The notes under the pieces: model-generated
Database searches by the model: none
The model's input: the letters and a program-made list of their open reading frames with translations, nothing else
What the model was told of the DNA's origin: nothing
In this document: one piece after another, positions 32,993 to 43,611 of the stretch
Layout: each line of letters starts with the position of its first letter
Numbering within the stretch: position 1 is the first letter of the stretch
From: Cellulophaga fucicola
GTDB lineage: Bacteria; Bacteroidota; Bacteroidia; Flavobacteriales; Flavobacteriaceae
Assembly: GCF_900119145.1 (NCBI RefSeq)
Contig: NZ_FPIY01000002.1
Location: forward strand, 689,579-753,578
Reading direction: 5' to 3'
Length of the DNA stretch: 64,000 nt
Position numbers and translations under genes: made by a program

Positions 32993-33146
32993 TTTTAAAA
33001 AACAACCACACAGTTTTTTATACCAACGGTATAGAATTTAGGTACAATTACACAAATACGTAATTATAGTATAAAAATTAGTATTAAATTGTAAGAAAAT
33101 TAAGCGACAAAAATAGAAATGTGCGTTTATTACACCTATATGGGTG

Positions 33147-33172
33147 AGTAAACGCAATAAATTGCGTTTACT
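33147..33172. repeat. perfect 26-bp palindrome in a gene-free stretch
   Basis: AGTAAACGCAAT and ATTGCGTTTACT are perfect 12-bp inverted arms around a 2-bp AA centre. It lies between the kinase terminator and the first cassette-like element. It has no T-run, so it is not a terminator. A protein-binding or recombination site is possible but untested. Confidence 0.6.
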
Positions 33173-33356
33173 AACTAGTTATCTATCACGAAAGTATTTT
33201 TGTAGGTTTCAGTTCAAAAATTACGGCGCATTAGTCCTAATGGTAGTCGGTGCTGGATCGCAGCTTTTAAAACTTGATGAATGACGGCAAATTCATAGTT
33301 TTTTGGATTGTTGATTTTAATTCCAATTTAGTTTTCTTTTTTTGAAGTTCTGGTTT
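33173..33356. other. gene-free stretch before the cassette-like array
   Basis: No convincing gene is present on either strand in this stretch. The base composition looks less A-rich and more G-rich than the neighbouring intergenic DNA (for example ATTACGGCGCATTAGTC near 33221). It may be the decayed remains of an older unit of the array that begins next to it (inference). Confidence 0.35.
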
Positions 33357-33638
33357 GTTGTGTATAACGGCGCGGTTTGGGTGTGTTTGCTGGTGGCGAA
33401 TAGTACAGTACTCTTCAATGGTTTGGGCTACTCGGATCGCGATAGATAACATTATGTATAAAAACATTTGTTTTCAGTTATTTGGGTAAAGCTCGAAGGG
33501 TGGGGTATAAAAACAGGCCTTTCTAAAGCCAATCGAAACTTTTATCTTAGCTTTATATTTAATACGGCCTTTGGGTTTGGGACTTGCCAAATGGTTTGGG
33601 GACTCACAAACGTTTTATACACACGGGCGTTAGGCAAC
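33357..33638 (+). repeat. attC-like element 0, left edge of cassette-like array
   Basis: It begins GTTGTGTATAAC (33357-33368) and ends TTATACACACGGGCGTTAGGCAAC (to 33638). The terminal box GTTAGGCAAC (33629-33638) is the exact reverse complement of GTTGCCTAAC at the end of the next gene. The interior is G-rich on the plus strand and differs from the other elements, and at about 282 bp it is the longest. It may be a composite of two elements or an old leader. Confidence 0.55.
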
Positions 33639-33654
33639 ATAAAGAGAAACGACA

Positions 33655-34443
33655 TTGACAGAAAGAAAAACCAACTTCAAAACCATTTGGCAAAGAGCTA
33701 AAATCAGACCAATATTACTACTTTTTGCATTTCAAGGAATTGCATTTGCATTACTTCTTTTTCTTCCAATGGGCTTAATGATGAATTCATTAGGGAATAG
33801 TTTTCCTTTTATTGAAAACGCCGAAAAAATTCAATCTGATGGAATTACAGCTAATGCTACCCTAACTGGAATCAAAGGAATTGATAACATAACTGTCAAT
33901 GGAAATAATCCACAAATTTTGACTTATGAATTTGACAACAACGGTCAGAAAACGGAATCAAAGTTTAGTGTGTTTGAACCAGAAAAAACTGATAATTTAA
34001 AAATTGGAGATATAATTCCAATTAAACATTTGAACGGAGAATCAATGCCAACCGAATTTGAACAATATTCGTTTAGTATGGATTTTATGTATTACATAGC
34101 TGGAGCCATTCTTTTGATTGGACTAATTCTTTCCTATCTACTATACTCACGAATAAATAAAGAAATTTCATTGTATAAAACAGGCAGAATTATGGACGGA
34201 AAAATAATTTCAATAAGCCATAATAAAGGGTTCACATTTTCGAAATTTGGTTCGTCAATGGATGTACATTATGAATACGGTAATAATGTCGCGAAATCAA
34301 GGACTAATAATTTTGCTTTGACAAATAACAAATCAATTAGAGATTCAATTAAAATTTTGGTTTCAAAAGACGGAAATTCATCTTGTCTATATCCTGAATT
34401 GATTGCTAAAACTAATGGTTGGAAAGAAAATTACGTTGCCTAA
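33655..34443 (+). CDS. two-helix membrane protein resembling DUF3592 (cassette 1)
   Basis: This 262-aa protein is the only gene between two complementary boxes. The start is TTG at 33655 (MTERKTNFKTIW after initiation); no upstream in-frame ATG exists, and the next ATG would remove the first helix. It has one membrane segment near residues 18-42 and another near 142-163, with an extracytoplasmic domain between and a beta-rich C-terminal domain. Both soluble parts show the pattern of DUF3592-like proteins ('GITANATLTGIKGI' and 'GRIMDGKIISISHNKG'). The stop codon lies inside the terminal box GTTGCCTAAC, so coding sequence fills the unit. The function is unknown. Confidence 0.7.
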   Translation: MTERKTNFKTIWQRAKIRPILLLFAFQGIAFALLLFLPMGLMMNSLGNSFPFIENAEKIQSDGITANATLTGIKGIDNITVNGNNPQILTYEFDNNGQKTESKFSVFEPEKTDNLKIGDIIPIKHLNGESMPTEFEQYSFSMDFMYYIAGAILLIGLILSYLLYSRINKEISLYKTGRIMDGKIISISHNKGFTFSKFGSSMDVHYEYGNNVAKSRTNNFALTNNKSIRDSIKILVSKDGNSSCLYPELIAKTNGWKENYVA

Positions 34444-34575
34444 CACCGTGTATAATTAATTGCTTGGTTCTTGCCTACTTGCGAAAATTCCTGCGGAATT
34501 TTCACGGGTTCGTAAAAGTTAGCTAAATTAGTTGCTGAACCACGCAACTAATCATACACAAACACGTTAGCAAAC
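34435..34575 (+). repeat. attC-like element A
   Basis: This 141-bp imperfect palindrome starts GTTGCCTAACACCGTGTAT and ends ATACACAAACACGTTAGCAAAC. The outer arms pair over about 25 bp (GTGTATAATTAATTGC against GCAACTAATCATACAC), then TTGCTTGGTTC pairs with GAACCACGCAA. A separate inner hairpin, GAAAATTCC-TGC-GGAATTTTC, lies at 34483-34503. The first box matches the start of the unit before, and the last box (GTTAGCAAAC) matches the end of the unit after. Confidence 0.75.
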
Positions 34576-34624
34576 ATTAGAATCAACATTATTCATTCCT
34601 AGAATTCTATTCATAATTACGTAA

Positions 34625-35755
34625 ATGGAAATTAACTATAACATTGTCAGTTTAATCGATATACTCGGGTTAGTTCAAGGTGTGTTTTTAGGCTTGGTAT
34701 TAATAATCGAAGGCAGACGCATAAAACCCAAGCTTTTTTTAGGCTTATTTTTAATTGCGTATTGCGCAGAACTCTTAAACTCAATCCTTCACGATTTAAA
34801 CATTCTTGAATCTGAACCTTGGTTGCTGTTTTTACCATTTAACTTTTTTTATTTAATACTTCCTTTATTCTATATATATGTTAAAGAAATTTCTAATATT
34901 AATTTAACTAAAAAGAAAATTGTACTCATCCTTTTGCCTGGAATACTAGAATTTATAAGTTATACAGTATTTTTTATGCTAAGTGTGGGTACAAAAGCAA
35001 AATTGCATAATTCAGAAAGTTTTTCTAATGTATTGTCTCTGATTGAAATATTATCATTTGCTTATTCAATATATTATATCTTTCTAACTATTAAATTCAT
35101 TAATAAGCAAAAAACAAAAGTTGAAGAATTTTACTCAAATACAGAAGGAAAATTACTCACTTGGGCAAAGGGTGTTCTTATGTTTCTGTTTACCTTTCTG
35201 ATTATTATATTGTCTTCACTTTTTTTAGAAGGAATATTTTATGATGATTACATCTATCCAGCCATTTCAATAATTAATGTCGTTTTTATTTTCTGGATAG
35301 GGATTTCCGGTATAAAGCAGTCTAAGCTTTTTGTTACTAAAATCGCTAGTATTAAAAAGATAGACCATCAACAAAGTGATGTTAATGAAACCAATAATAG
35401 ATTAAAAACTAATAATAAAGATCATTATGAAAAGTTAATTGCATTAATGGATGATGAAAAATTATTTTTAGAGCCCAATTTATCTTTAGCAGATGTGTCT
35501 TTAAAACTTAAAATAACGCAACGGAATTTATCGGAACTCATACGAGACGAGTCTGACAAAAACTTTAATCAATTTGTAAATCATTATCGAGTAGAAGAAG
35601 CAAAAAAGTTATTATTAGATACTTCAAACAATCATTTAAATATGTTAGGAATAGCTTTTGACTCAGGATTTAGCTCAAAAGCAACATTTTATAGTGTTTT
35701 TAAAAAACACACTTCCCTTACACCTACATTGTTTAAAAACAACACATTATCATAA
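34625..35755 (+). CDS. membrane-bound AraC-family regulator (cassette 2)
   Basis: This 376-aa protein has an N-terminal membrane domain of about six or seven helices (residues 10-230) and a C-terminal AraC helix-turn-helix domain (about 270-370), with 'LSLADVSLKLKITQRNLSEL' and 'GIAFDSGFSSKATFYSVFKK' followed by 'TPTLFK'. This 7TM-AraC architecture is frequent in flavobacteria and suggests a sensor that regulates DNA from the membrane. It begins 50 bp after the start box of a unit that also holds a small membrane protein and a lipoprotein. A perfect hairpin after its stop separates it from them. The signal and targets are unknown. Confidence 0.88.
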   Translation: MEINYNIVSLIDILGLVQGVFLGLVLIIEGRRIKPKLFLGLFLIAYCAELLNSILHDLNILESEPWLLFLPFNFFYLILPLFYIYVKEISNINLTKKKIVLILLPGILEFISYTVFFMLSVGTKAKLHNSESFSNVLSLIEILSFAYSIYYIFLTIKFINKQKTKVEEFYSNTEGKLLTWAKGVLMFLFTFLIIILSSLFLEGIFYDDYIYPAISIINVVFIFWIGISGIKQSKLFVTKIASIKKIDHQQSDVNETNNRLKTNNKDHYEKLIALMDDEKLFLEPNLSLADVSLKLKITQRNLSELIRDESDKNFNQFVNHYRVEEAKKLLLDTSNNHLNMLGIAFDSGFSSKATFYSVFKKHTSLTPTLFKNNTLS

Positions 35756-35782
35756 AACTACACGAGTCTATAATTATGTAAT

Positions 35783-35809
35783 AAGTCTAGAAAACGGTTT
35801 TCTAGACTC
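35783..35809 (+). terminator. hairpin after the membrane AraC gene
   Basis: AAGTCTAGAAAAC and GTTTTCTAGACT form a nearly perfect stem with a minimal loop. The T-run follows only after about 9 bp (CCTTTTTT), so it is a probable but not ideal terminator. Confidence 0.6.
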
Positions 35810-35849
35810 AACAAGCCTTTTTTAAGACTTAAAAAATAGTCCTTGGCCG

Positions 35850-35857
35850 TATCTTTG
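35850..35857 (+). promoter_or_regulatory. -7 box before the small membrane protein
   Basis: TATCTTTG followed by CACC is a perfect flavobacterial -7 box, 26 bp before the ATG at 35883. The -33 element is weak. It gives the last two genes of cassette 2 their own promoter. Confidence 0.6.
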
Positions 35858-35882
35858 CACCAGCAAATCAAGAATTAGAATT

Positions 35883-36086
35883 ATGAAGACTAATAAACTG
35901 ACTTTGATGGTAATAATCTTTATCTGGATTCTTTTCATTTCTTGGGAATTACTTATAACAGAATGGAGTCTTATAAAAAACAAAGATGCATTTAGGGTAG
36001 ACCTACTTATTATTTTTCCACTACTTCAGTTTATTACAATTTATACATTAATTAAAGTATTTAGTAAAACCAAAATAACAAAATAA
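35883..36086 (+). CDS. small two-helix membrane protein (cassette 2)
   Basis: This 67-aa protein has two hydrophobic segments (about residues 8-25 and 40-58) joined by a short polar turn ('TEWSLIKNKDAFRVD'). It is basic at the C-terminus (KTKITK). No family is recognised. It follows a perfect -7 box and lies 35 bp before a lipoprotein gene, so the two probably form an operon within the same cassette-like unit. Confidence 0.6.
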   Translation: MKTNKLTLMVIIFIWILFISWELLITEWSLIKNKDAFRVDLLIIFPLLQFITIYTLIKVFSKTKITK

Positions 36087-36121
36087 ATAATTGCGCAAAA
36101 GTGCGCTAAAAATTAAAAAAA

Positions 36122-36886
36122 ATGAAAATTAAAAATTTATTTAAAACAGTAATTTGCTTATTAACTTTAAGCTTAACATTTAGTTGTTCTAGCGATGATG
36201 ATTCTATGAATCCACCAACAGATAATAGTAGCTTTACAACTAATTCCAACACAGATTTTTTTATAAATTTTGATGGGACTGTAAATCTAATAGTTTCGGG
36301 AACTTTTCAAGAAGATAGTGGTTTTGGGACAGTAACAGACAGAGGTTTTGTTTATGGTACTTCATCTAACCCTGAAGTTGGTGCTAATAATACTTCAGGT
36401 ATATCTGGTAGTAATTCTGATGCAACAGGTTATATAGAAAATTTAACAAGTGGTCAAACTTATTTTATAAGAGGTTATTTTGAATACAGTGATGGCACTC
36501 ATTTCTATGGAAACGAGATACAAGCAAGTACTGATGTTGATGCGAGTACTAGTAGAAATGTTACTTTAGATATAGAATCAGACGCGTTTTTAATTCAGAC
36601 AGACTTTATCACAGTAACATTAAATATTAATAATGTTGTTAAAGAAATGCCTATAGAATTTGGTGTTGAATATAGTGTAAATAGCGATTTCACTAGCAGT
36701 AGTATAAATGCAATTGAGAATTTTGATGGTATACATAACGAAGGTACTATTGTAATTACTAGTTATTCTGCTGTAGCAGAACCTCTAATGTCAGGAACTC
36801 AATACTATTTTAGGCCATACGTAAAATATGCTGACAATACAGTAACAAATGGCGGAACTAGTATAGCTAATTTCGCTACAAACTAA
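36122..36886 (+). CDS. lipoprotein with two repeated beta domains (cassette 2)
   Basis: This 254-aa surface-type lipoprotein has the signal MKIKNLFKTVICLLTLSLTFSC followed by SSDDD, an acidic stretch typical of surface-exported Bacteroidota lipoproteins. Two tandem beta-rich domains each end in a 'TSGQTYFIRGYFEYSDGTHF' or 'MSGTQYYFRPYVKYADNTV' segment, a pattern seen in Fn3-like cell-surface proteins of this phylum. No enzyme motif is present. It is the last gene of unit 2; the terminal box GTTTGCTAAC begins 12 bp after its stop. Confidence 0.75.
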   Translation: MKIKNLFKTVICLLTLSLTFSCSSDDDSMNPPTDNSSFTTNSNTDFFINFDGTVNLIVSGTFQEDSGFGTVTDRGFVYGTSSNPEVGANNTSGISGSNSDATGYIENLTSGQTYFIRGYFEYSDGTHFYGNEIQASTDVDASTSRNVTLDIESDAFLIQTDFITVTLNINNVVKEMPIEFGVEYSVNSDFTSSSINAIENFDGIHNEGTIVITSYSAVAEPLMSGTQYYFRPYVKYADNTVTNGGTSIANFATN

Positions 36887-36898
36887 ATAGAATAAAAC

Positions 36899-37034
36899 GT
36901 TTGCTAACAACGTATATAAAAAATAGCTAATTAAGCGCAAATCATAATGGTTTGCGCTTTTTTAATATCTTTAGGCAAAGAGAAAAGTATTGAATACCTA
37001 AACGCTACTTTTCATATACAAGACCGTTATGCAC
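36899..37034 (+). repeat. attC-like element B
   Basis: It begins GTTTGCTAAC, the exact reverse complement of the box that starts the unit (GTTAGCAAAC at 34566), and ends GACCGTTATGCAC. The outer arms AACGTATATAAAAAATAGC and GCTACTTTTCATATACAAG pair imperfectly. The centre carries a terminator-like hairpin, AAGCGCAAA with TTTGCGCTT and a T-run (36933-36963). Confidence 0.75.
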
Positions 37035-37646
37035 AACCAAAAAAACATCGTGACTAAAATAAAAGACATCTATTTGAATAAAGATTTACGAGTTGGTGGA
37101 TTTTACGAATTGACTATTCAAGTTTGTCGGAGCTCGAATATGGAACCAATAAAAAAATACACAGAATATATTAAATCGCTTAAAAATGTTGATGGACCAT
37201 TTGAAAGAAACTTTGAGTTAACAAATATAGAAATTGAGACTTTTGAACACGAATGGGTTTTAAATTTAGAGAACGTATCAATTCCGTTTAAAACATTTAA
37301 TATACACGAAGACGAACCAATTGAAACTGGATTTAATTGGTTTGATATATGCTTTTATACAGAGACAATCGAACAACTATTCGGAGAAGAATATAAAACT
37401 TGGGATGAAAACCCTAAATGTCCGCCCGCATTAAATGATTTTTTTAATCAAACAATAATGAATTTGAATAACATCCATAAATTTCAATTAGCAATGATAG
37501 ACTTTGAAATTTCAGGTCAATATTATTTAGCAGATATGGGTAAAGATTTTAATAATTGGACTAACTCGAATTTCTTTGTGAATGAAAAAGATGCTCATCT
37601 GATTTCGGAACGAAATAAAACAGTTGTGGAAATAATAAGTGGATAA
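37029..37646 (+). CDS. hypothetical soluble protein (cassette 3)
   Basis: This 205-aa protein fills its unit: the ATG lies inside the start box GTTATGCAC, and the stop is 5 bp from the end box GTGCATAAC. No signal peptide or membrane helix is seen. It is acidic and rich in Asn, Phe and Trp, with 'FNWFDICFYTETIEQLFGEE' in the middle and 'FEISGQYYLADMGKDFNNWT' near the end. I do not recognise the family. A small soluble protein that occupies an entire cassette resembles stand-alone immunity or accessory proteins, but nothing in the sequence shows that role. Confidence 0.65.
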   Translation: MHNQKNIVTKIKDIYLNKDLRVGGFYELTIQVCRSSNMEPIKKYTEYIKSLKNVDGPFERNFELTNIEIETFEHEWVLNLENVSIPFKTFNIHEDEPIETGFNWFDICFYTETIEQLFGEEYKTWDENPKCPPALNDFFNQTIMNLNNIHKFQLAMIDFEISGQYYLADMGKDFNNWTNSNFFVNEKDAHLISERNKTVVEIISG

Positions 37647-37651
37647 AGGCA

Positions 37652-37852
37652 GTGCATAACACTATATATAGCAAATTGGGCGATTAGTACTTAACCAAAA
37701 GTTTAGTGCCATTTACAAACACCGCCAAATTTTTAATTTGGCTTTTAAAAAAGAGAAAAATTAAAAGCAAAACATAAAAATTAGGCTCTGTGTTAATCCG
37801 AAAATCTAGTGTCTTTTTTCACGCTACGTTTCATACACTAACCGTTAGGCAC
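37652..37852 (+). repeat. attC-like element C
   Basis: It begins GTGCATAAC (exact complement of GTTATGCAC at 37026) and ends CATACACTAACCGTTAGGCAC. The outer arms share TATATAGC / CGCTACGTTTCATACA pairing. An inner hairpin GCCAAATT-TTT-AATTTGGC lies near 37728-37745. At about 201 bp it is longer than A and B. The gene-free gap of 313 bp before the next gene is this element plus about 107 bp of ordinary leader. Confidence 0.65.
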
Positions 37853-37959
37853 AAGCACTCACTAAACCTTAAAAATAGACATACATAAAAAAATGTTTGA
37901 AAAAGTGTAATAAAATTACCTTTTGCTAATCTAAAGAGTAAATCGTAAAAACATTTACA

Positions 37960-38835
37960 ATGAAAAAATTAGCAATTCTATTAGTCATCTTTTTTTATCA
38001 AACAGCAACTTACTCTCAATCTGAAAAATATTCTTTCAATATTGAAATTAAAGGGAAAGGAAAACCAATAATTCTAATTCCTGGGTTAGCATCTTCTGGT
38101 AAAGTATGGAAAGAAACAACAGATACATTAGAGAAGAATTTTGAATGTCATATTTTGACTTTAGCAGGATTTGCTAATCAAAGTACAATTTCACTAGAAA
38201 AAGGTTACTTACCTATTATTGAAAACGAAATTATAAAGTATGTACAGGATGAACTTAATGAAAAACCAATATTAATTGGACATAGTTTGGGTGGTTTTTT
38301 ATCACTTTCTATAGCAAGTTCTAAACCTAAATTACTAGAAAAGATAATAATTGTAGACTCATATCCTTTTATGTCTTTGGCTTACAACCCAAATGCAACA
38401 GTAGAAAATATTCTTCCACAAGCAAAAATGATGAAAGAAATGATGCTAAAAACTTCTGATAGTCTATTTATTCAACAACAAAAAATGACGATGCCAACTA
38501 TGATAGCTGATTCCACAAATATTCAGTTAGCGACTAAATGGTCTATACAATCAGACAGAAGTACAATGGCACAAGCAATTTATGAACTTATGACAACGGA
38601 CTTAAGAAATGATATTGAAAAAGCAAAAATACCTATCCTTGTATTTGGAAGTTGGTATGGAGCAAAAGATTACGGAATAACAAAAGAAACAGTTCTAGCA
38701 AACTATAAAAATCAATTTTTGAAAGCAGATAATTGCGAAATAAAAGTTGCAGAAACAGCAAAGCACTTTATAATGTGGGACGAACCTAAATGGTTTATTA
38801 ATTTAGTTGAGGCATTTATAAATTATGAAGAATAA
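37960..38835 (+). CDS. secreted alpha/beta hydrolase (cassette 4)
   Basis: This 291-aa alpha/beta-hydrolase-fold protein has a signal peptide (MKKLAILLVIFFYQTATYSQ). 'KPIILIPGLASSGKVWKETT' is the oxyanion-hole loop region, and GHSLGGF holds the nucleophile Ser in the G-x-S-x-G elbow. The late His is in 'VAETAKHFIMWDEP', and the acid is probably the Asp or Glu before it. It overlaps the next gene, an ECF sigma factor, by 11 bp, which is an unusual partner. The substrate is unknown; an esterase or lactonase is likely from the fold. Confidence 0.85.
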   Translation: MKKLAILLVIFFYQTATYSQSEKYSFNIEIKGKGKPIILIPGLASSGKVWKETTDTLEKNFECHILTLAGFANQSTISLEKGYLPIIENEIIKYVQDELNEKPILIGHSLGGFLSLSIASSKPKLLEKIIIVDSYPFMSLAYNPNATVENILPQAKMMKEMMLKTSDSLFIQQQKMTMPTMIADSTNIQLATKWSIQSDRSTMAQAIYELMTTDLRNDIEKAKIPILVFGSWYGAKDYGITKETVLANYKNQFLKADNCEIKVAETAKHFIMWDEPKWFINLVEAFINYEE

Positions 38836-39319
38836 AGAACAAAAATTTAAAAAAGTCTATGAGCAATCAAAGGATAAAGTCTATCGACTTTGTTTGGGAT
38901 TTATGGGAAATAAAATTGATGCTGATGATTTATTTCAAGAAGTTCTTATAAAAGTTTGGAATAATTTAGACACGTTTAGAAATGAGAGTAATATAGATAC
39001 TTGGATTTACCGAATCACAACAAACACAGCACTCTTAACTCTAAATAGAAAAACCAAATTAAAGAAAAAAGAGATAGATTATCAACCCAATATTCCTCAT
39101 TACGAAAGTGATAATTTAAACTCAACGGATAAAGAACAAGAAGTAAAAAAACTCTATAAAGCCATTTCATCACTCAAAGAAATAGATAGAATAATTATAG
39201 GATTATTATTAGAGAATTGTAGTTATGACGACATTTCTAATATAACTGGATTAAAAACTTCGAATGTTGGAGTTAGGATAAATAGAATTAAAAAAACATT
39301 GAGTAAAAAACTCAAATAA
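38825..39319 (+). CDS. ECF-type RNA polymerase sigma factor (cassette 4)
   Basis: This 164-aa group 4 sigma factor has region 2 (about residues 8-80) with 'VYRLCLGFMGNKIDADDLFQ', 'EVLIKVWNNLDTFR' and 'IDTWIYRITTNTALLTLNRK', and region 4 (about 105-160) with 'LKEIDRIIIGLLLENCSYDD' and 'ITGLKTSNVGVRINRIKKTL'. Its ATG overlaps the hydrolase stop, and the next gene starts 2 bp after it. No classical zinc-binding anti-sigma is present; the 192-aa membrane protein downstream is the candidate partner. A sigma factor inside a cassette-like unit is notable because it could act on genes elsewhere. Confidence 0.92.
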   Translation: MKNKEQKFKKVYEQSKDKVYRLCLGFMGNKIDADDLFQEVLIKVWNNLDTFRNESNIDTWIYRITTNTALLTLNRKTKLKKKEIDYQPNIPHYESDNLNSTDKEQEVKKLYKAISSLKEIDRIIIGLLLENCSYDDISNITGLKTSNVGVRINRIKKTLSKKLK

Positions 39320-39321
39320 TT

Positions 39322-39900
39322 ATGGAGAAAGATATTACAAACTGGCAAAACCTTTGGAAAGAAGAAAAGTCTACACCTTTAGACTTAAGTAAGTTGATTA
39401 CCCATTTAAACAAAGTAGAAAAGAAAGGAAAATTAGAAAGAATTATTTTACTCGTTGCTGTTCCAGTTACGATAATAATTTTAGCAACGTTACTCCCTAT
39501 ACTCTCAAATATATATTATTTAATAGCTATAGTCATAATTAGTTTTGGTATGATAATGATACTAATACAATCTTATAAAAGTAAGTATAGCTTAATAAGC
39601 AATGATGCTGAATTAAATAATCATAAGTATATAAAAAACCTTATTCATAAACTAAAACAACGAATGTTAACTACATCAAAATATATGTGGTTCTATACAT
39701 TTCTATTAGTTTTAGGAATAAATATAGGCTACATAGATGTTTTACAAAAATTCAATGTATCAATAACTGCAAGGATAATTATTCACGTTGTTTTCACAGT
39801 TTTAATGATTTGCGTGATGTATTTTTCAATAGAAAAAAGAAAAAAAGAAAATAACAAAGGAATTTTACCCTTAATTGACTTTTTAGAAAATTTGAACTGA
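39322..39900 (+). CDS. four-helix membrane protein, candidate anti-sigma partner (cassette 4)
   Basis: This 192-aa protein has a short cytoplasmic N-terminal part ('NWQNLWKEEKSTPLDLSKLI', then a charged helix to about residue 40) and four predicted membrane segments (about 42-60, 65-84, 122-140 and 148-166). Similar proteins are commonly seen right after ECF sigma genes in Bacteroidota. The N-terminal helix could sequester the sigma factor, but it has no recognised anti-sigma domain (no HxxxCxxC zinc motif). The 2-bp gap to the sigma gene indicates coupling. The role is inference. Confidence 0.6.
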   Translation: MEKDITNWQNLWKEEKSTPLDLSKLITHLNKVEKKGKLERIILLVAVPVTIIILATLLPILSNIYYLIAIVIISFGMIMILIQSYKSKYSLISNDAELNNHKYIKNLIHKLKQRMLTTSKYMWFYTFLLVLGINIGYIDVLQKFNVSITARIIIHVVFTVLMICVMYFSIEKRKKENNKGILPLIDFLENLN

Positions 39901-39910
39901 AAAATTGCCA

Positions 39911-40045
39911 GTGACTAAAAATGCATATAATCCATTGCTAGTACTAGCCTATTTATAAAAATCCTTACAGACTTTATATCTGTGACTTATTTACTAACTT
40001 TAGTGGTTAACAACGCAACTAATCTTATACAAAACCGTTAGCAAC
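39911..40045 (+). repeat. attC-like element D
   Basis: It starts GTGACTAAA, which matches the expected complement of the unit's start box (GTGCCTAAC) at 7 of 9 positions, and ends CTTATACAAAACCGTTAGCAAC. The arms TGCATATAATCCATTGC and GCAACTAATCTTATACAA pair imperfectly. An inner hairpin, ACAGA-TATAAAG region, is weak. Confidence 0.6.
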
Positions 40046-40067
40046 ATCCTAAAAAATAACTCTGAAT

Positions 40068-40724
40068 ATGAATTGGAAAATAATATTTATAATGCTAATT
40101 GGGTTAACTGCTTGTAAAAACAAAACCGAAAAGAGTCCAATTAAAGAAGTTGAGAAAATAATTAGTCTAGATAGTTTATACTCTGAAGTCAACAATAAAC
40201 CAGTTTTGAATACAGAATCAACTACAAAAATCACGGACTGTAATTTTGATAAATTTATTTCTGATAATAGAATTTCAAAAATTGCTAAAGATATATACTT
40301 AGATAATAATTGGAAACTAGACAATGCTATGGGATTACTAGATAGCTTGACAACTAAAAATAAATATTCAAGACCATTCTATTTTAAAGTGGTAACTCTG
40401 ACCTATCAAAAATCTGATGGAGCTTTTTCCGAAGGACTCGGATATGAAGGAAAAAAATATGTTAAAAATAATACTAAGGAATTTGTTTCATATTTTAATT
40501 CTGAAAAATGCTTTACAGAAGATGATTTAACGATTTGGGTAAATATTATTATGTTAGAATTTAGTTTAATTGCCAACAATGAATTTGACAAAAATCTTAT
40601 TGAAAACTACATTGAAATCTTAAATAAGAATTGTTTAGACTGTACTGAAAATCAAAAAAAAACTCTGAAGAAATTCAATTCAATTTTAAGAGTTAAATGG
40701 AATGAATTGTTGAAACATATTTGA
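40068..40724 (+). CDS. hypothetical lipoprotein (cassette 5)
   Basis: This 218-aa lipoprotein (MNWKIIFIMLIGLTAC, Cys at 16) is followed by a Lys/Glu-rich linker. The mature part is largely helical, with two Cys pairs: 'KITDCNFDKF' and 'SEKCFTEDD', then 'NKNCLDCTENQKK'. No family is recognised. It is alone between elements D and E. A helical repeat of TPR type is possible in the C-terminal half but the pattern is weak. Confidence 0.6.
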   Translation: MNWKIIFIMLIGLTACKNKTEKSPIKEVEKIISLDSLYSEVNNKPVLNTESTTKITDCNFDKFISDNRISKIAKDIYLDNNWKLDNAMGLLDSLTTKNKYSRPFYFKVVTLTYQKSDGAFSEGLGYEGKKYVKNNTKEFVSYFNSEKCFTEDDLTIWVNIIMLEFSLIANNEFDKNLIENYIEILNKNCLDCTENQKKTLKKFNSILRVKWNELLKHI

Positions 40725-40737
40725 TTTTAGAAAAAAG

Positions 40738-40838
40738 CCGAACCCCTATCCATATATAATTTATTGCAGGCTTCTTGCCTATTTACAAAATTAAGTACTT
40801 AAACCACGCAACAAACCATATTCAAGACGTTGTATACA
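40738..40838 (+). repeat. attC-like element E
   Basis: It starts GCCGAACCCCTATCCATATATAA and ends GCAACAAACCATATTCAAGACGTTGTATAC. CATATATAATTTATTGC pairs with GCAACAAACCATATTC, and TGCAGGCTT pairs with AAACCACGCA. The inner part ATTAAGTACTTAA is a short palindrome. The boundary boxes are degenerate and do not complement those of the adjacent units. Confidence 0.5.
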
Positions 40839-40843
40839 ATTTA

Positions 40844-41404
40844 ATGAAAAATATAAAACAAAAATATAAATTGATTCTAGCTATATTATTAATATGGTTT
40901 TTGGGACATATAATTTATACCACTATTGACGGGTTAACCAAGAATGAAAACAAGGCAGATGTTGCTGTAATACTTGGGAATAAGGTAAATGAAGATGGCA
41001 CTCTTTCGGAACGGCTTGAAAAACGTTTAGAATGCGGTCTAAAATTGTATCAAAACGGACAAGTAAAAAAAATAATTGTAAGTGGAGGTCTGGACAAAGA
41101 AGGTTTTTACGAAGGAGATAAAATGAAAGAGTATTTAATTAAAAATAATGTTCCTAGTTCTGCAGTTATTATTGACAATTTTGGAAACAATACCCTCGCA
41201 ACCGTTAAAAACACCATAGCACTACAAGAAACCTTAAGTTTTAAAAGTATAATTGTTGTATCACAATACTTTCATTTAACAAGAATAAAAATGCTGTTTA
41301 AAAAGCAAGGCTTTAAAAATGTTAGTAGTGCAAGTCCTATGTATTTTGAGGTTAGAGATTTTTATTCTTTGTTTAGGGAATTTGTAGCTTACTACATTGG
41401 GTAA
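40844..41404 (+). CDS. YdcF/SanA-like DUF218 membrane protein (cassette 6)
   Basis: ATG at 40844 gives a 186-aa protein; a longer frame from 40775 would run through element E and is rejected. One N-terminal membrane helix (about residues 9-27) is followed by a DUF218 domain: 'ADVAVILGNKVNEDGTLSER', 'RLECGLKLYQNGQVKKIIVS', 'GDKMKEYLIKNNVPSSAVII', 'NTLATVKNTIALQE' and 'IIVVSQYFHLTRIKMLFKKQ'. Members (SanA, ElyC, YdcF) are linked to envelope integrity and vancomycin permeability. It is the sole gene of its unit. Confidence 0.88.
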   Translation: MKNIKQKYKLILAILLIWFLGHIIYTTIDGLTKNENKADVAVILGNKVNEDGTLSERLEKRLECGLKLYQNGQVKKIIVSGGLDKEGFYEGDKMKEYLIKNNVPSSAVIIDNFGNNTLATVKNTIALQETLSFKSIIVVSQYFHLTRIKMLFKKQGFKNVSSASPMYFEVRDFYSLFREFVAYYIG

Positions 41405-41411
41405 AAGCTGA

Positions 41412-41600
41412 GCATAACAATAGCTATAAGCAATAAAGGTTTTGGGCTAAACTAAAAGGTCTTGTATATTTAAAGTGTAGTTAAATCTGTTAGATTTAGC
41501 TTTAGAATAAAAAAGGAAATATTCCGTGACCACCTGCCCTATATCTCTTACATACAAGATTAACACGAATATGATGCAACATTTAAAAATTTAATGAGTC
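41412..41600 (+). repeat. attC-like element F (left arm only)
   Basis: GCATAACAATAGCTATAAGC at 41412-41431 matches the left arms of the other elements (a TAAC box, then a TATA-rich step and GCAAT). A good right arm is missing: near 41572-41584 only ATGATGCAACATT recalls it. The element seems decayed or truncated. Confidence 0.35.
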
Positions 41601-41621
41601 TTTATAAGAAATGAGAAATCG

Positions 41622-42659
41622 ATGAAATCAATACTGTCTGTGTTACTGTTTTTAATGTTTTGCTATCAAAGTTTTAGTCAAAAAAAATATTTTGAAGATA
41701 AGTTTGAACACTTTACAATAATAAAAAATAATGATACAATACAATTTCATACATACTTAAATGGAGAATTAACTTCTAAAAAGGGCGCTCTATTATATCT
41801 TCAAGGCTCTGGGAATGATCCTTTTTACAAATTAATTAGACACACTGACACCATTAAATCTTCAAAAACTGAGAAACCAGAAATTAAGAAATATCTTGAG
41901 GTTCATAAAACCCTACCTTTTAATTTAAAAGAATTTACTCAAGACTATTTGTTAGTTGCAATTTCTAAAAAAAGCATTCCTTTTGAAATATTTGGTAATG
42001 ATTTTAAAACTCCAAAATCATTTTATGAAAATGACAACTTAAATTATAGAGTATGGCAGGCTAATGAAGTTGTAAATTACCTGTTAGAAAACATTTTAGA
42101 AAAGAAAAGTAAAATTATTGCTCTTGGCCACTCAGAAGGTACAGAGGTAGTAGCAAAGCTTGGAACAATTAATCATAAAATTTCAGCTATTGGTTATTTT
42201 TCTGGAGGCGGAAATGCACAATACTACGATTTTATACTAGATATTAGAAAATATGTGCAAAGAGGAGAAATGACTGAGGAAGAATCTATTATAGAAACTG
42301 AAAAAATTTTTAACGAAATAAAAGACATATACAAACACCCTAACAGTTTAACAAAAAAATGGTTAGGGCATTCTTATAGAAAATGGAGTTCGTCTATAGA
42401 ACCATCTATAGATAATTTATTAAAAATTAATATTCCAATATATGTTGCACACGGAGCAAAAGACAAAGCCGTTCCTATAGAGTCGGCATACTTAATACCT
42501 ATTGAATTTATTAGAAATAAAAAAACTAATTTAACTTTTAAGGTGTATCCAAAATTAGATCATTCGTTTGCTATAATACCACAATCTGATAACGAAGAAT
42601 ATGTAGATAAATGGGATGAAGTGCTTAAAGATTTTTTAAACTGGTGCGAAATAAATTAA
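41622..42659 (+). CDS. secreted alpha/beta hydrolase-like protein (cassette 7)
   Basis: This 345-aa protein has a signal peptide (MKSILSVLLFLMFCYQSFSQ). The alpha/beta-hydrolase core shows 'KKGALLYLQGSGNDP' as oxyanion region, GHSEGTE as the nucleophile elbow (G-x-S-x-G), 'PIYVAHGAKDKAVPIESAYL' with the acid Asp, and 'PKLDHSFAI' with the catalytic His. All three catalytic residues are thus present. The fold is that of prolyl-oligopeptidase-like or dienelactone-hydrolase-like enzymes. It is a different subfamily from the hydrolase in cassette 4. The substrate is unknown. Confidence 0.8.
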   Translation: MKSILSVLLFLMFCYQSFSQKKYFEDKFEHFTIIKNNDTIQFHTYLNGELTSKKGALLYLQGSGNDPFYKLIRHTDTIKSSKTEKPEIKKYLEVHKTLPFNLKEFTQDYLLVAISKKSIPFEIFGNDFKTPKSFYENDNLNYRVWQANEVVNYLLENILEKKSKIIALGHSEGTEVVAKLGTINHKISAIGYFSGGGNAQYYDFILDIRKYVQRGEMTEEESIIETEKIFNEIKDIYKHPNSLTKKWLGHSYRKWSSSIEPSIDNLLKINIPIYVAHGAKDKAVPIESAYLIPIEFIRNKKTNLTFKVYPKLDHSFAIIPQSDNEEYVDKWDEVLKDFLNWCEIN

Positions 42660-42759
42660 AAAAGCAATTTGTTAATACTATAAACATCACTAAACACATA
42701 TTACGTACAAATACGCTACCTATGGTTTATTTGCTAAATTAGTTACATAACAACGTTGC

Positions 42760-43611
42760 GTGTTATCAAAAAAAAACGAGTTGAATAAAACAATAAAAGT
42801 AACCAACGGTACATCTTTCTTAGAGTTAAAACTAAACACACTAGGGAGTTACTTAAAATTTAAAAAACCACTAGCCATAAATTGGTCAGATTGTCAAGGA
42901 TCAATTGCGCAGTTCTATGCCATATTCTCGTATTTACAAGAGTATAAAGAGTCTATACAAGAATCTTTAAGAGTAAAATTAAATGACGGAAGTTTTGACT
43001 TAAATTCTGAGATAGATGAAGTATCTAAACTTCTTTCTCTTTTTGAAAATGGCACATACAACATATCTTTTGAACCAGAGTACCAATATAAAATATCGGA
43101 CAATTGGAATTGGAACTTAGCCAAAAACAACAAACTTTTTTCGTCTAATGCAGTAATTAGAGAAGAAACCCAAACGTTGTACTCTGATGAAAATAAGAAC
43201 TTAGACTATCTAACAGAATCATATTATAACGGGTATAGTGAGTATTTTATATTTACGCAACCATCAGAAGTATTAAATAAAGAGAGAATTAAATTCTATC
43301 AAGAAAAAATAATACAAGGAGAAAAACCCACCGCTATAATTTATAACGGCTATTCTGAAACCAAAGGAACATATAAAGATGGCTCTAATTGGATTAGAAC
43401 TTATTTAAGTGGAGATTTTATTATTGATGGTCACCATAAACTAATGGCTTATAAAAAATTAAATTGCGCACCTTCTTTATTAAGAATTTCAAAAATTTAT
43501 AATTCAGATGATAAATTAAATTTTTCTATGAAAGATTTTAAGAGTGATCTAGCTAGTAGATTATTAAAATGTCAGTCTAAACATTTTACAGAAAACTATA
43601 AAGAAAAATAA
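42760..43611 (+). CDS. hypothetical protein with ParB-like DGHH motif (last array gene)
   Basis: This 283-aa soluble protein starts at GTG 42760 inside the GTTGCGTGTTATC box; the coding sequence again begins at the boundary. No signal peptide or membrane helix is seen. The C-terminal third holds 'FIIDGHHKLMAYKKLNCAPS', preceded by 'GEKPTAIIYNGYSETKGTY'. The 'DGHHKL.AY' segment resembles the 'DGHHRL.A' motif of ParB/sulfiredoxin-fold proteins, which bind and hydrolyse nucleotides. This is a short-motif similarity and no more. The N-terminal two thirds match nothing I know. Confidence 0.6.
   Translation: MLSKKNELNKTIKVTNGTSFLELKLNTLGSYLKFKKPLAINWSDCQGSIAQFYAIFSYLQEYKESIQESLRVKLNDGSFDLNSEIDEVSKLLSLFENGTYNISFEPEYQYKISDNWNWNLAKNNKLFSSNAVIREETQTLYSDENKNLDYLTESYYNGYSEYFIFTQPSEVLNKERIKFYQEKIIQGEKPTAIIYNGYSETKGTYKDGSNWIRTYLSGDFIIDGHHKLMAYKKLNCAPSLLRISKIYNSDDKLNFSMKDFKSDLASRLLKCQSKHFTENYKEK

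Follow-up and report, generated by a model that had tools for sequence, protein, structure and literature searches.

A putative integron-like cassette system in Cellulophaga fucicola and other Bacteroidia, with a tyrosine recombinase lacking the IntI additional domain

Introduction

The stretch of 64,000 nucleotides analysed here (the window) comes from Cellulophaga fucicola, a flavobacterium with a 3.92-Mb genome in 21 contigs, and corresponds to C12:689579-753578, C12 being contig NZ_FPIY01000002.1. From 33041 to about 41430, the window carries an attI-like site followed by an array of gene cassettes. Taken together with the rest of the genome and with its relatives, the array very probably belongs to an integron-like platform, in which a dedicated tyrosine recombinase without the additional domain of the integron integrase IntI would excise cassettes and insert them at attI platforms. 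The gene for the candidate enzyme lies on the same contig, about 257 kb from the window array.

Results

The cassette array in the window

A preliminary description, made from the letters of the window, had proposed an integron-like array whose units begin and end with complementary boxes. The array is real, but it begins earlier than proposed, with the attI-like site and an additional unit 1, the boxes of which (GTTATCTATC at 33178 and GATAGATAAC at 33441) are reverse complementary at 10 of 10 bases. The three box pairs of the original proposal were found in place at all six positions: GTTAGGCAAC at 33629 with GTTGCCTAAC at 34435 (unit 2, 10/10), GTTAGCAAAC at 34566 with GTTTGCTAAC at 36899 (unit 3, 10/10), and GTTATGCAC at 37026 with GTGCATAAC at 37652 (unit 4, nine complementary nucleotides and a differing tenth base). 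Later units had been called degenerate, and their end boxes indeed match at 7/10 (unit 5), 5/10 (unit 6) and 6/10 (unit 7) positions. Despite the decayed boxes, an element or its remnant is still found by a covariance model in units 5 and 6 (Table 1). When four window elements were folded as single top strands and compared with shuffles, z values of −3.5, −2.9, −2.4 and −0.8 were obtained, and only the first closed end to end as one hairpin.

The signal within the window is modest. Six exact pairs of GTT..AAC 10-mers spaced 250-3000 bp apart were counted, whereas 300 dinucleotide shuffles averaged 2.0 and five of them reached six; three of the six real pairs are not cassette boxes. The case rests on the rest of the genome and on the relatives.

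Complementarity of boxes within each unit

It is the genome and its relatives that make own-box complementarity decisive. Among 77 adjacent element pairs drawn from the window and 90 loci, 51 matched at all five bases after GTT, as compared with 1.6% of swapped pairs; the remaining 26 include missed or false elements as well as true mismatches. Examined by position, matching was 0.60-0.82 over offsets 3-9, dropped to 0.01 at offset 10 and returned to 0.69-0.77 over offsets 11-13. The failure at offset 10 is mostly a C in the end box facing an A in the start box on the top strand, which corresponds to G.T on the bottom strand (104 of 143 sites). Array covers the whole of contig C15 (11.2 kb), which, read by eye, holds 13 complete consecutive units with boxes matching at 8-10 of 10 bases.

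The box sequences are diverse (GTTACCACAC, GTTGCCAGTA, GTTAGCCACA and GTTATATGCA among others), and because they vary so much, the match within a unit does not reflect a common consensus. They also depart from the core boxes of integrons, GTTRRRY and RYYYAAC: GTT and AAC are common to the sites and the bases that follow are free, as in GTTATGCACA and in three of the boxes just given (GTTACCACAC, GTTGCCAGTA, GTTATATGCA), with some, such as GTTAGGC, conforming. Searching the C. fucicola genome with a consensus pattern exposed further clusters beyond the window. At three mismatches the pattern gave 102 matches and a reversed-pattern control gave 87; isolated weak matches are thus meaningless, and clusters alone were pursued.

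The hairpin site

The bottom strands of 49 elements (from 55 listed of 80 candidates; six were omitted, one as an opposite-strand duplicate and the rest for thinning) align as a 15-bp stem with compensatory change in 14 of the 15 pairs. One pair is a nearly invariant wobble, G.U in 48 of the 49 elements; another is G.U in 32, G-C in 10 and A-U in 4. Integrons use the bottom strand as the folded substrate. When 143 sites were rebuilt in circular form, the bottom strand was predicted to be the more stable one in 122 (p = 3e-19; mean −30.3 versus −27.2 kcal/mol), and at 137 of them the circular form gave a more stable bottom strand than the array form did. Mismatches in the stem were A.C or C.A on the top strand, equivalent to G.T on the bottom strand, in 232 cases and G.T or T.G on the top strand in 42. 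The predicted fold thus favours, in silico, the strand that integrons use, and the bottom strand would be the folded substrate here as well.

We also asked about an extrahelical base in 45 box-defined sites, of which 38 could be scored (five were too weak and two lay at contig ends). No bulge was required in 23 (14 outright, nine ties), and a 1-nt bulge was better in 15, which led us to drop the general claim that these sites have no extrahelical base. The canonical IntI loci used for comparison yielded five sites in 2 of 14 loci, all with a 1-nt bulge.

Dispersed attI-like platforms

The C. fucicola genome holds 12 platforms at which a GTT-ending attI-like unit stands in array orientation with its GTT intact, counted in the regions retrieved on the basis of a search of the whole genome and with reverse matches of the palindrome dropped; some copies are conserved in their last part only. 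The last 32 bp of the window site also lie 3′ of the recombinase gene. At 11 of the 12 platforms, a script located an end box complementary to the first start box (no more than one mismatch) at a distance of 270-3202 bp downstream; this looser criterion came without its own control. At the twelfth (L044 19461), the exact partner of the start box is supplied by the first element of L045, the adjoining locus. Under a strict arm criterion, 7 of the 12 platforms pass, whereas of 395 random GTTR sites one does. In a comparison of 18 genomes of the genus (C. fucicola included here and below), the attI-like unit is limited to the five that have this type of recombinase. Partial matches that end before GTT occur at C16:510838-510920, C12:227402-227472 and C8:978578-978645, and are possibly decayed platforms.

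Cassette breakpoints at GTT

At the recombinase platform, five congeners share a common sequence up to ...GCGTTTACTAAC(T/A)A and then continue with five different cassettes, starting with GTTATATACC, GTTGGCAATA, GTTATATTTA, GTTGTAACCA and GTTAGCAGCA. The window platform likewise has its flank and site in common among four genomes, followed by the starts GTTATCTATC, GTTGCCAAAC, GTTGGCGGTA and GTTAGCATTA. In genome G300, the histidine-kinase alignment ends at the gene, and a site is found about 1 kb further on with GTACC in place of GTT. Congener G298, which lacks the window platform, contains two 33-bp matches that start exactly at the GTT of the C. fucicola first cassette (query 943-975). The preliminary description had held that conserved gene order among relatives, with breakpoints never at GTT, would speak against it; orthologous platforms differ in their cassettes and break at GTT.

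The same cassette was found in two contexts in six pairs, with homology bounded by GTT, which bears out the proposed gene-cassette organization. These pairs come from 20 rows of matches in which one contig under two identifiers, repeats within L123, paralogues and non-array matches were not counted. Five pairs are within a genome (L208 1146/12521, 1849/10242 and 2593/11583; L209 1090/5429; L108 12620/14728), with identities of 0.97-1.0 in the body and 0.98-1.0 in the element, falling to 0.30-0.57 over the 40 bp that follow the next GTT. Upstream of the cassette start, the values over 40 bp are 0.05, 0.28, 0.57, 0.62 and 0.82; random 40-mers have a median identity of 0.25 and a 95th percentile of 0.575. 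In two of the pairs, one copy stands at attI, and a hairpin site precedes the other. The sixth pair joins an Algoriphagus metagenome-assembled genome (MAG) and Flavobacterium denitrificans, with an identity of 0.95 in body and element, 0.10 before and 0.28 after. A further pair at contig ends (L049/L042), comparable at its start only, has identical first 40 bp and 0.62 identity before them. These comparisons indicate that cassettes move as GTT-bounded units, as integron cassettes do. The crossover within GTT cannot be placed more exactly since GTT is common to all sites; by analogy with integrons, it may be G^TT.

One could suppose instead that the palindromes are passive repeats (terminators, or sequences resembling repetitive extragenic palindromes or miniature inverted-repeat transposable elements) and that the arrays change by homologous recombination between them. 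The elements are indeed palindromic and repeated, and contigs often break in or near them. However, the breakpoints fall at GTT and are not scattered through the element, the junctions in two of the pairs have unrelated upstream sequence (the identities of 0.05 and 0.10 over 40 bp), and boxes that are complementary unit by unit would have no role. We consider this explanation extremely improbable.

The candidate recombinase

The window had been described as containing no integrase, and no Phage_integrase match lies inside it; the four such matches of the genome are all outside. A search for a tyrosine recombinase with or without the IntI patch had been suggested, and one without it is encoded near the end of contig C12, at C12:980091-980981 excluding the stop codon (L049 16786-17679). 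The protein of 297 amino acids has its nearest named relative in Cellulophaga sp. 20_2_10 (96% protein identity) and contains the motifs GLRISE, KDR, HTLRHSF, LLGH and IYTH, which we take to be catalytic. All of its NCBIfam scores are below threshold: the best match is NF040815 (XerA, or "site-specific tyrosine recombinase/integron integrase"; 209.8 bits, cut-off 220), and the IntI model TIGR02249 gives 206 bits (cut-off 265). XerA is a chromosome-resolution enzyme. Downstream of the gene and on the same strand, AAACGCAATAAACTGCGTTTACTAACTA is followed immediately by GTTATATACC and then by Crp/Fnr-like and epimerase-like genes (identified by eye); the array continues with an element whose end box is GGTATATAAC, one further unit and the start of a third that reaches the contig end. 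Crp/Fnr-type regulators occur closely 3′ of recombinases of this clade on two unrelated replicons (L049 17751-18320, by eye; L314 10107-10667 and 17645-18217).

The spacing from KDR to the HxLRHS box is 69 residues in this recombinase and 69-70 across the four bacterial enzymes measured, compared with 111 in three IntI controls and 75 and 77 in the two Xer proteins of C. fucicola. The gap is also evident when 12 bacterial enzymes are aligned. The recombinase thus lacks the IntI additional domain, or patch, of about 40 residues before HxLRHS, which is one of the defining features of integrons. Its absence favours a different recombination system, a possibility that the preliminary description had raised. 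A quick tree of 111 rows placed the 28 IntI controls in one group (Shimodaira-Hasegawa-like approximate likelihood ratio test support 100) and 81 recombinases, 80 from the genome scan and that of C. fucicola, in the other (92). In a second quick tree of 75 rows, including 23 enzymes from viral contigs, the domain-less group had a support of 90. Because both are quick trees rooted on two long-branched Xer rows, with a long-branch warning in the larger one, we do not claim that the recombinase clade is the sister of IntI.

An alternative is that the housekeeping XerC/XerD, and not the array-adjacent recombinase, move the cassettes, as happens with Xer-exploiting elements. Xer-type recombinases are present in the genome and attI holds an inverted repeat, yet the recombinases that immediately precede attI in many genomes form a distinct clade, apart in the tree from the two C. 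fucicola Xer proteins. This alternative seems to us very unlikely.

The arrays might also be those of an ordinary integron or of a cluster of attC sites lacking integron-integrases (CALIN), built by a classical IntI that is elsewhere or has been lost. The plan is the same (attI, hairpin sites, and cassettes whose own boxes are complementary), the layout of attI is similar to that of the Shewanella attI quoted in PMC9892861, and integrons are on record from Bacteroidota. On the other hand, the C. fucicola genome has no TIGR02249 match above cut-off. Such matches occur in 85 of 296 GTDB-phylum genomes, one of them from the same class (whose share of the 296 is unlisted) and none from the same family or genus. 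The array-adjacent enzymes measured have 63-70 residues where the IntI controls have 111, and the boxes violate GTTRRRY. An ordinary integron is therefore an improbable source of these arrays.

All 18 genus genomes have some recombinase match at E ≤ 1e-40 and all contain elements, 3-91 in each. Many stops interrupt the recombinase frame in G302 and G303, and a single one does so in G304. In G302, a single-contig congener, the stop-interrupted gene (C1:728853-729736) stands at an attI platform and the arrays are still there.

Distribution in Bacteroidia and on viral contigs

A search with the recombinase as the query, from which 80 of at least 554 relatives were kept, gave 80 loci. A GTTR start box with a downstream reverse complement is found 3′ of the recombinase in 45 of them, and with hairpin arms in 32, compared with 15 of 127 and 0 of 127 in an upstream control. 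All 45 are among the 60 loci in which the sequence continues for at least 700 bp beyond the recombinase; the 20 shorter loci contain none. The first-cassette box pair in the 45 loci starts 38-455 bp after the recombinase match (median 96), in keeping with the position of attI next to the integrase in integrons. All 111 matches of a covariance model, R1, lie downstream in recombinase orientation, at 37 of the 80 loci, 11 of which contributed no training element.

Among 197 genomes of the class Bacteroidia, elements (E ≤ 1e-4 with strict filters, hence a lower bound) were detected in 148 and a recombinase (E ≤ 1e-45) in 108. Both were present in 102, the recombinase only in 6, elements only in 46 and neither in 43 (Fisher p = 2e-12). 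A recombinase that reads towards its array is not the universal arrangement: in one of these genomes, G377, a recombinase and elements on one contig are apparently divergent. Recombinases of the clade are also found on contigs of MAGs assigned to Rickettsiales, Fermentibacterota, Rhodobacteraceae and Armatimonadetes (L053, L076, L096 and L129), through either cross-phylum transfer or mis-binning.

Elements were found in 51 of 80 loci on large viral contigs (IMG/VR, L234-L313), none of which was used in training; they number 233 and all lie on one strand. In 53 of these loci, 175 arm-detected elements lie opposite to the recombinase strand and 34 on the same strand. Of 128 adjacent pairs, 73 agree at no fewer than 8 of the 9 box bases (counted without a swapped control). 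Most of the elements are upstream of the recombinase, which is the divergent, classical integron layout (for example, L256, L260, L286 and L300). The KDR-to-HxLRHS spacing is 63-70 residues in all 53 enzymes measured. Six of ten flanking proteins on five contigs match PHROG families, such as RNA ligase, helicase, deformylase, protease ATPase and transposase. The contigs include several near-copies, and their viral origin is taken from the IMG/VR label and these PHROG matches.

Two Chryseobacterium plasmids, L314 9001-18789 (NZ_CP041688.1) and L315 (NZ_CP094530.1), carry a 75%-identical recombinase, followed on one of them by small genes (Crp/Fnr, RidA, metallophosphoesterase and others). The label "site-specific tyrosine recombinase/integron integrase" is already attached to a plasmid relative by NCBI, so the enzyme family has been named before.

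Features of the window

The positions of the features are collected in Table 1. An Rfam search of 30-46 kb gave a lone match, to Thr_leader (36897-36966 in the unit 3 element; 28.9 of 55 bits), which is below threshold and probably a chance match to a hairpin.

Table 1. Attachment site, cassette units and downstream reading frames (ORF, open reading frame) in window coordinates.
Feature	Position	Strand	Content
attI-like platform site	33041-33180	+	inverted repeat TAAACGCAATAAATTGCGTTTA, then CTAACTA followed by GTT; dispersed genome copies
Insertion point of attI-like site	33178-33180	+	GTT
Cassette unit 1	33178-33628	+	no clear gene; boxes 33178/33441, then 181-bp hairpin element
Cassette unit 2	33629-34565	+	ORF 33655-34443 (262 amino acids, no Pfam match); boxes 33629/34435; element 34442-34568
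Cassette unit 3	34566-37025	+	AraC-type regulator 34625-35755, ORFs 35883-36086 and 36122-36886; boxes 34566/36899; element 36906-37028
Cassette unit 4	37026-37843	+	ORF 37029-37646 (no Pfam match); boxes 37026/37651 (9/10); long element about 37658-37843, missed by the covariance model
Cassette unit 5	37844-40036	+	alpha/beta hydrolase 37960-38835, sigma-70-family protein 38825-39319, ORF 39322-39900; end box decayed; element 39917-40039
Cassette unit 6	40037-40828	+	ORF 40068-40724 (no Pfam match); end box unrecognisable; element remnant 40752-40831
Possible unit 7, degenerate	40829-41430	+	DUF218 protein 40847-41404
Candidate array members	41622-43611	+	hydrolase-like ORF 41622-42659, ORF 42760-43611; no element by the covariance model

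Discussion

We propose that a cassette consists of one gene or a few genes together with a hairpin site and that, when free, it would be a circle. In the circle, the R stem of a single-stranded bottom-strand hairpin would form by pairing of the start box (GTTRNNNNNN) with the end box complementary to it, and the recombinase would join this folded site at GTT either with a double-stranded attI or with the site of another cassette. Encoded by a single gene at C12:980091-980981, the enzyme would act on the array next to it and also, in trans, on the remaining 11 attI platforms, of which the window holds one.

Like a sedentary chromosomal integron, the system has a tyrosine recombinase beside attI, arrays of small cassettes in one orientation, complementary boxes within the unit, a hairpin that favours the bottom strand, and GTT boundaries. 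It differs in that the recombinase lacks the additional domain and groups apart; that the R stem of about 10 bp (14 with the conserved mismatch) is unconstrained in sequence, in place of GTTRRRY; that the long stem contains a nearly invariant G.T wobble; and that the recombinase reads towards the array (the 37 loci with R1 matches), with a dozen dispersed attI copies. Resembling a CALIN, the window array has no adjacent integrase; unlike a CALIN, it starts at its own attI copy, and a likely recombinase is encoded elsewhere in the same genome. The system thus probably functions like an integron, yet lacks two of the defining features, the additional domain and the GTTRRRY boxes.

Several observations weigh against this proposal. 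The identities of 0.62 and 0.82 before the cassette start in two of the shared pairs are above the random range; in the latter, both preceding neighbours are similar hairpin sites. In L043/L118 the body is common (0.81) and the element is different (0.59), so boundaries are sometimes lost, and the end boxes of the later window units have decayed. From the shuffled-box control, 16-28 of 144 matched-box cassettes may be due to chance, and the same may hold for part of the 45 recombinase junctions when arms are not required, given the control of 15 of 127. No junction was counted in 35 of the 80 loci (33 had none and two were dropped for GTTT boxes), among them 15 of the 60 longer ones. Finally, elements persist despite a stop-ridden recombinase in congeners G302 and G303, and 46 of the 197 Bacteroidia genomes have elements with no recombinase at the threshold used.

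Beyond the platform itself, we lean towards a wider interpretation, somewhat more probable than its negation: that this is a separate major lineage of integrons, general in Bacteroidia, the recombinase of which never had the IntI domain or lost it. The lineage would be characterized by a bottom-strand hairpin that is paired along almost its whole length and has a short bulge and a near-invariant G.T wobble, by action in trans on a dozen attI platforms, and by adoption by large phages in a divergent layout, and would have gone unseen because surveys select by the patch. In the Nemergut 2008 integron survey, only integrases with the additional domain or patch were retained. For Bacteroidetes, the available text of IntegronFinder 2.0 mentions a single complete integron (Salinibacter) and, beyond it, only earlier In0 elements, and the eleven taxon-specific attC models (2021) include none for Bacteroidetes. 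Our literature search recognised no paper as describing this cassette system; bioRxiv and most subscription journals lay outside that search, so its absence from print is not established.

The enzyme is of a type that integrase surveys can exclude. If our interpretation is correct, a gene-capture system whose elements occur in 148 of the 197 Bacteroidia genomes sampled has been missed, and a domain held to be necessary for integron recombination would be dispensable in a related system. The system would also offer a natural comparison for the way in which a recombinase chooses one strand in folded DNA, and would add a new reservoir of mobile genes, both in Bacteroidia and in large phages.

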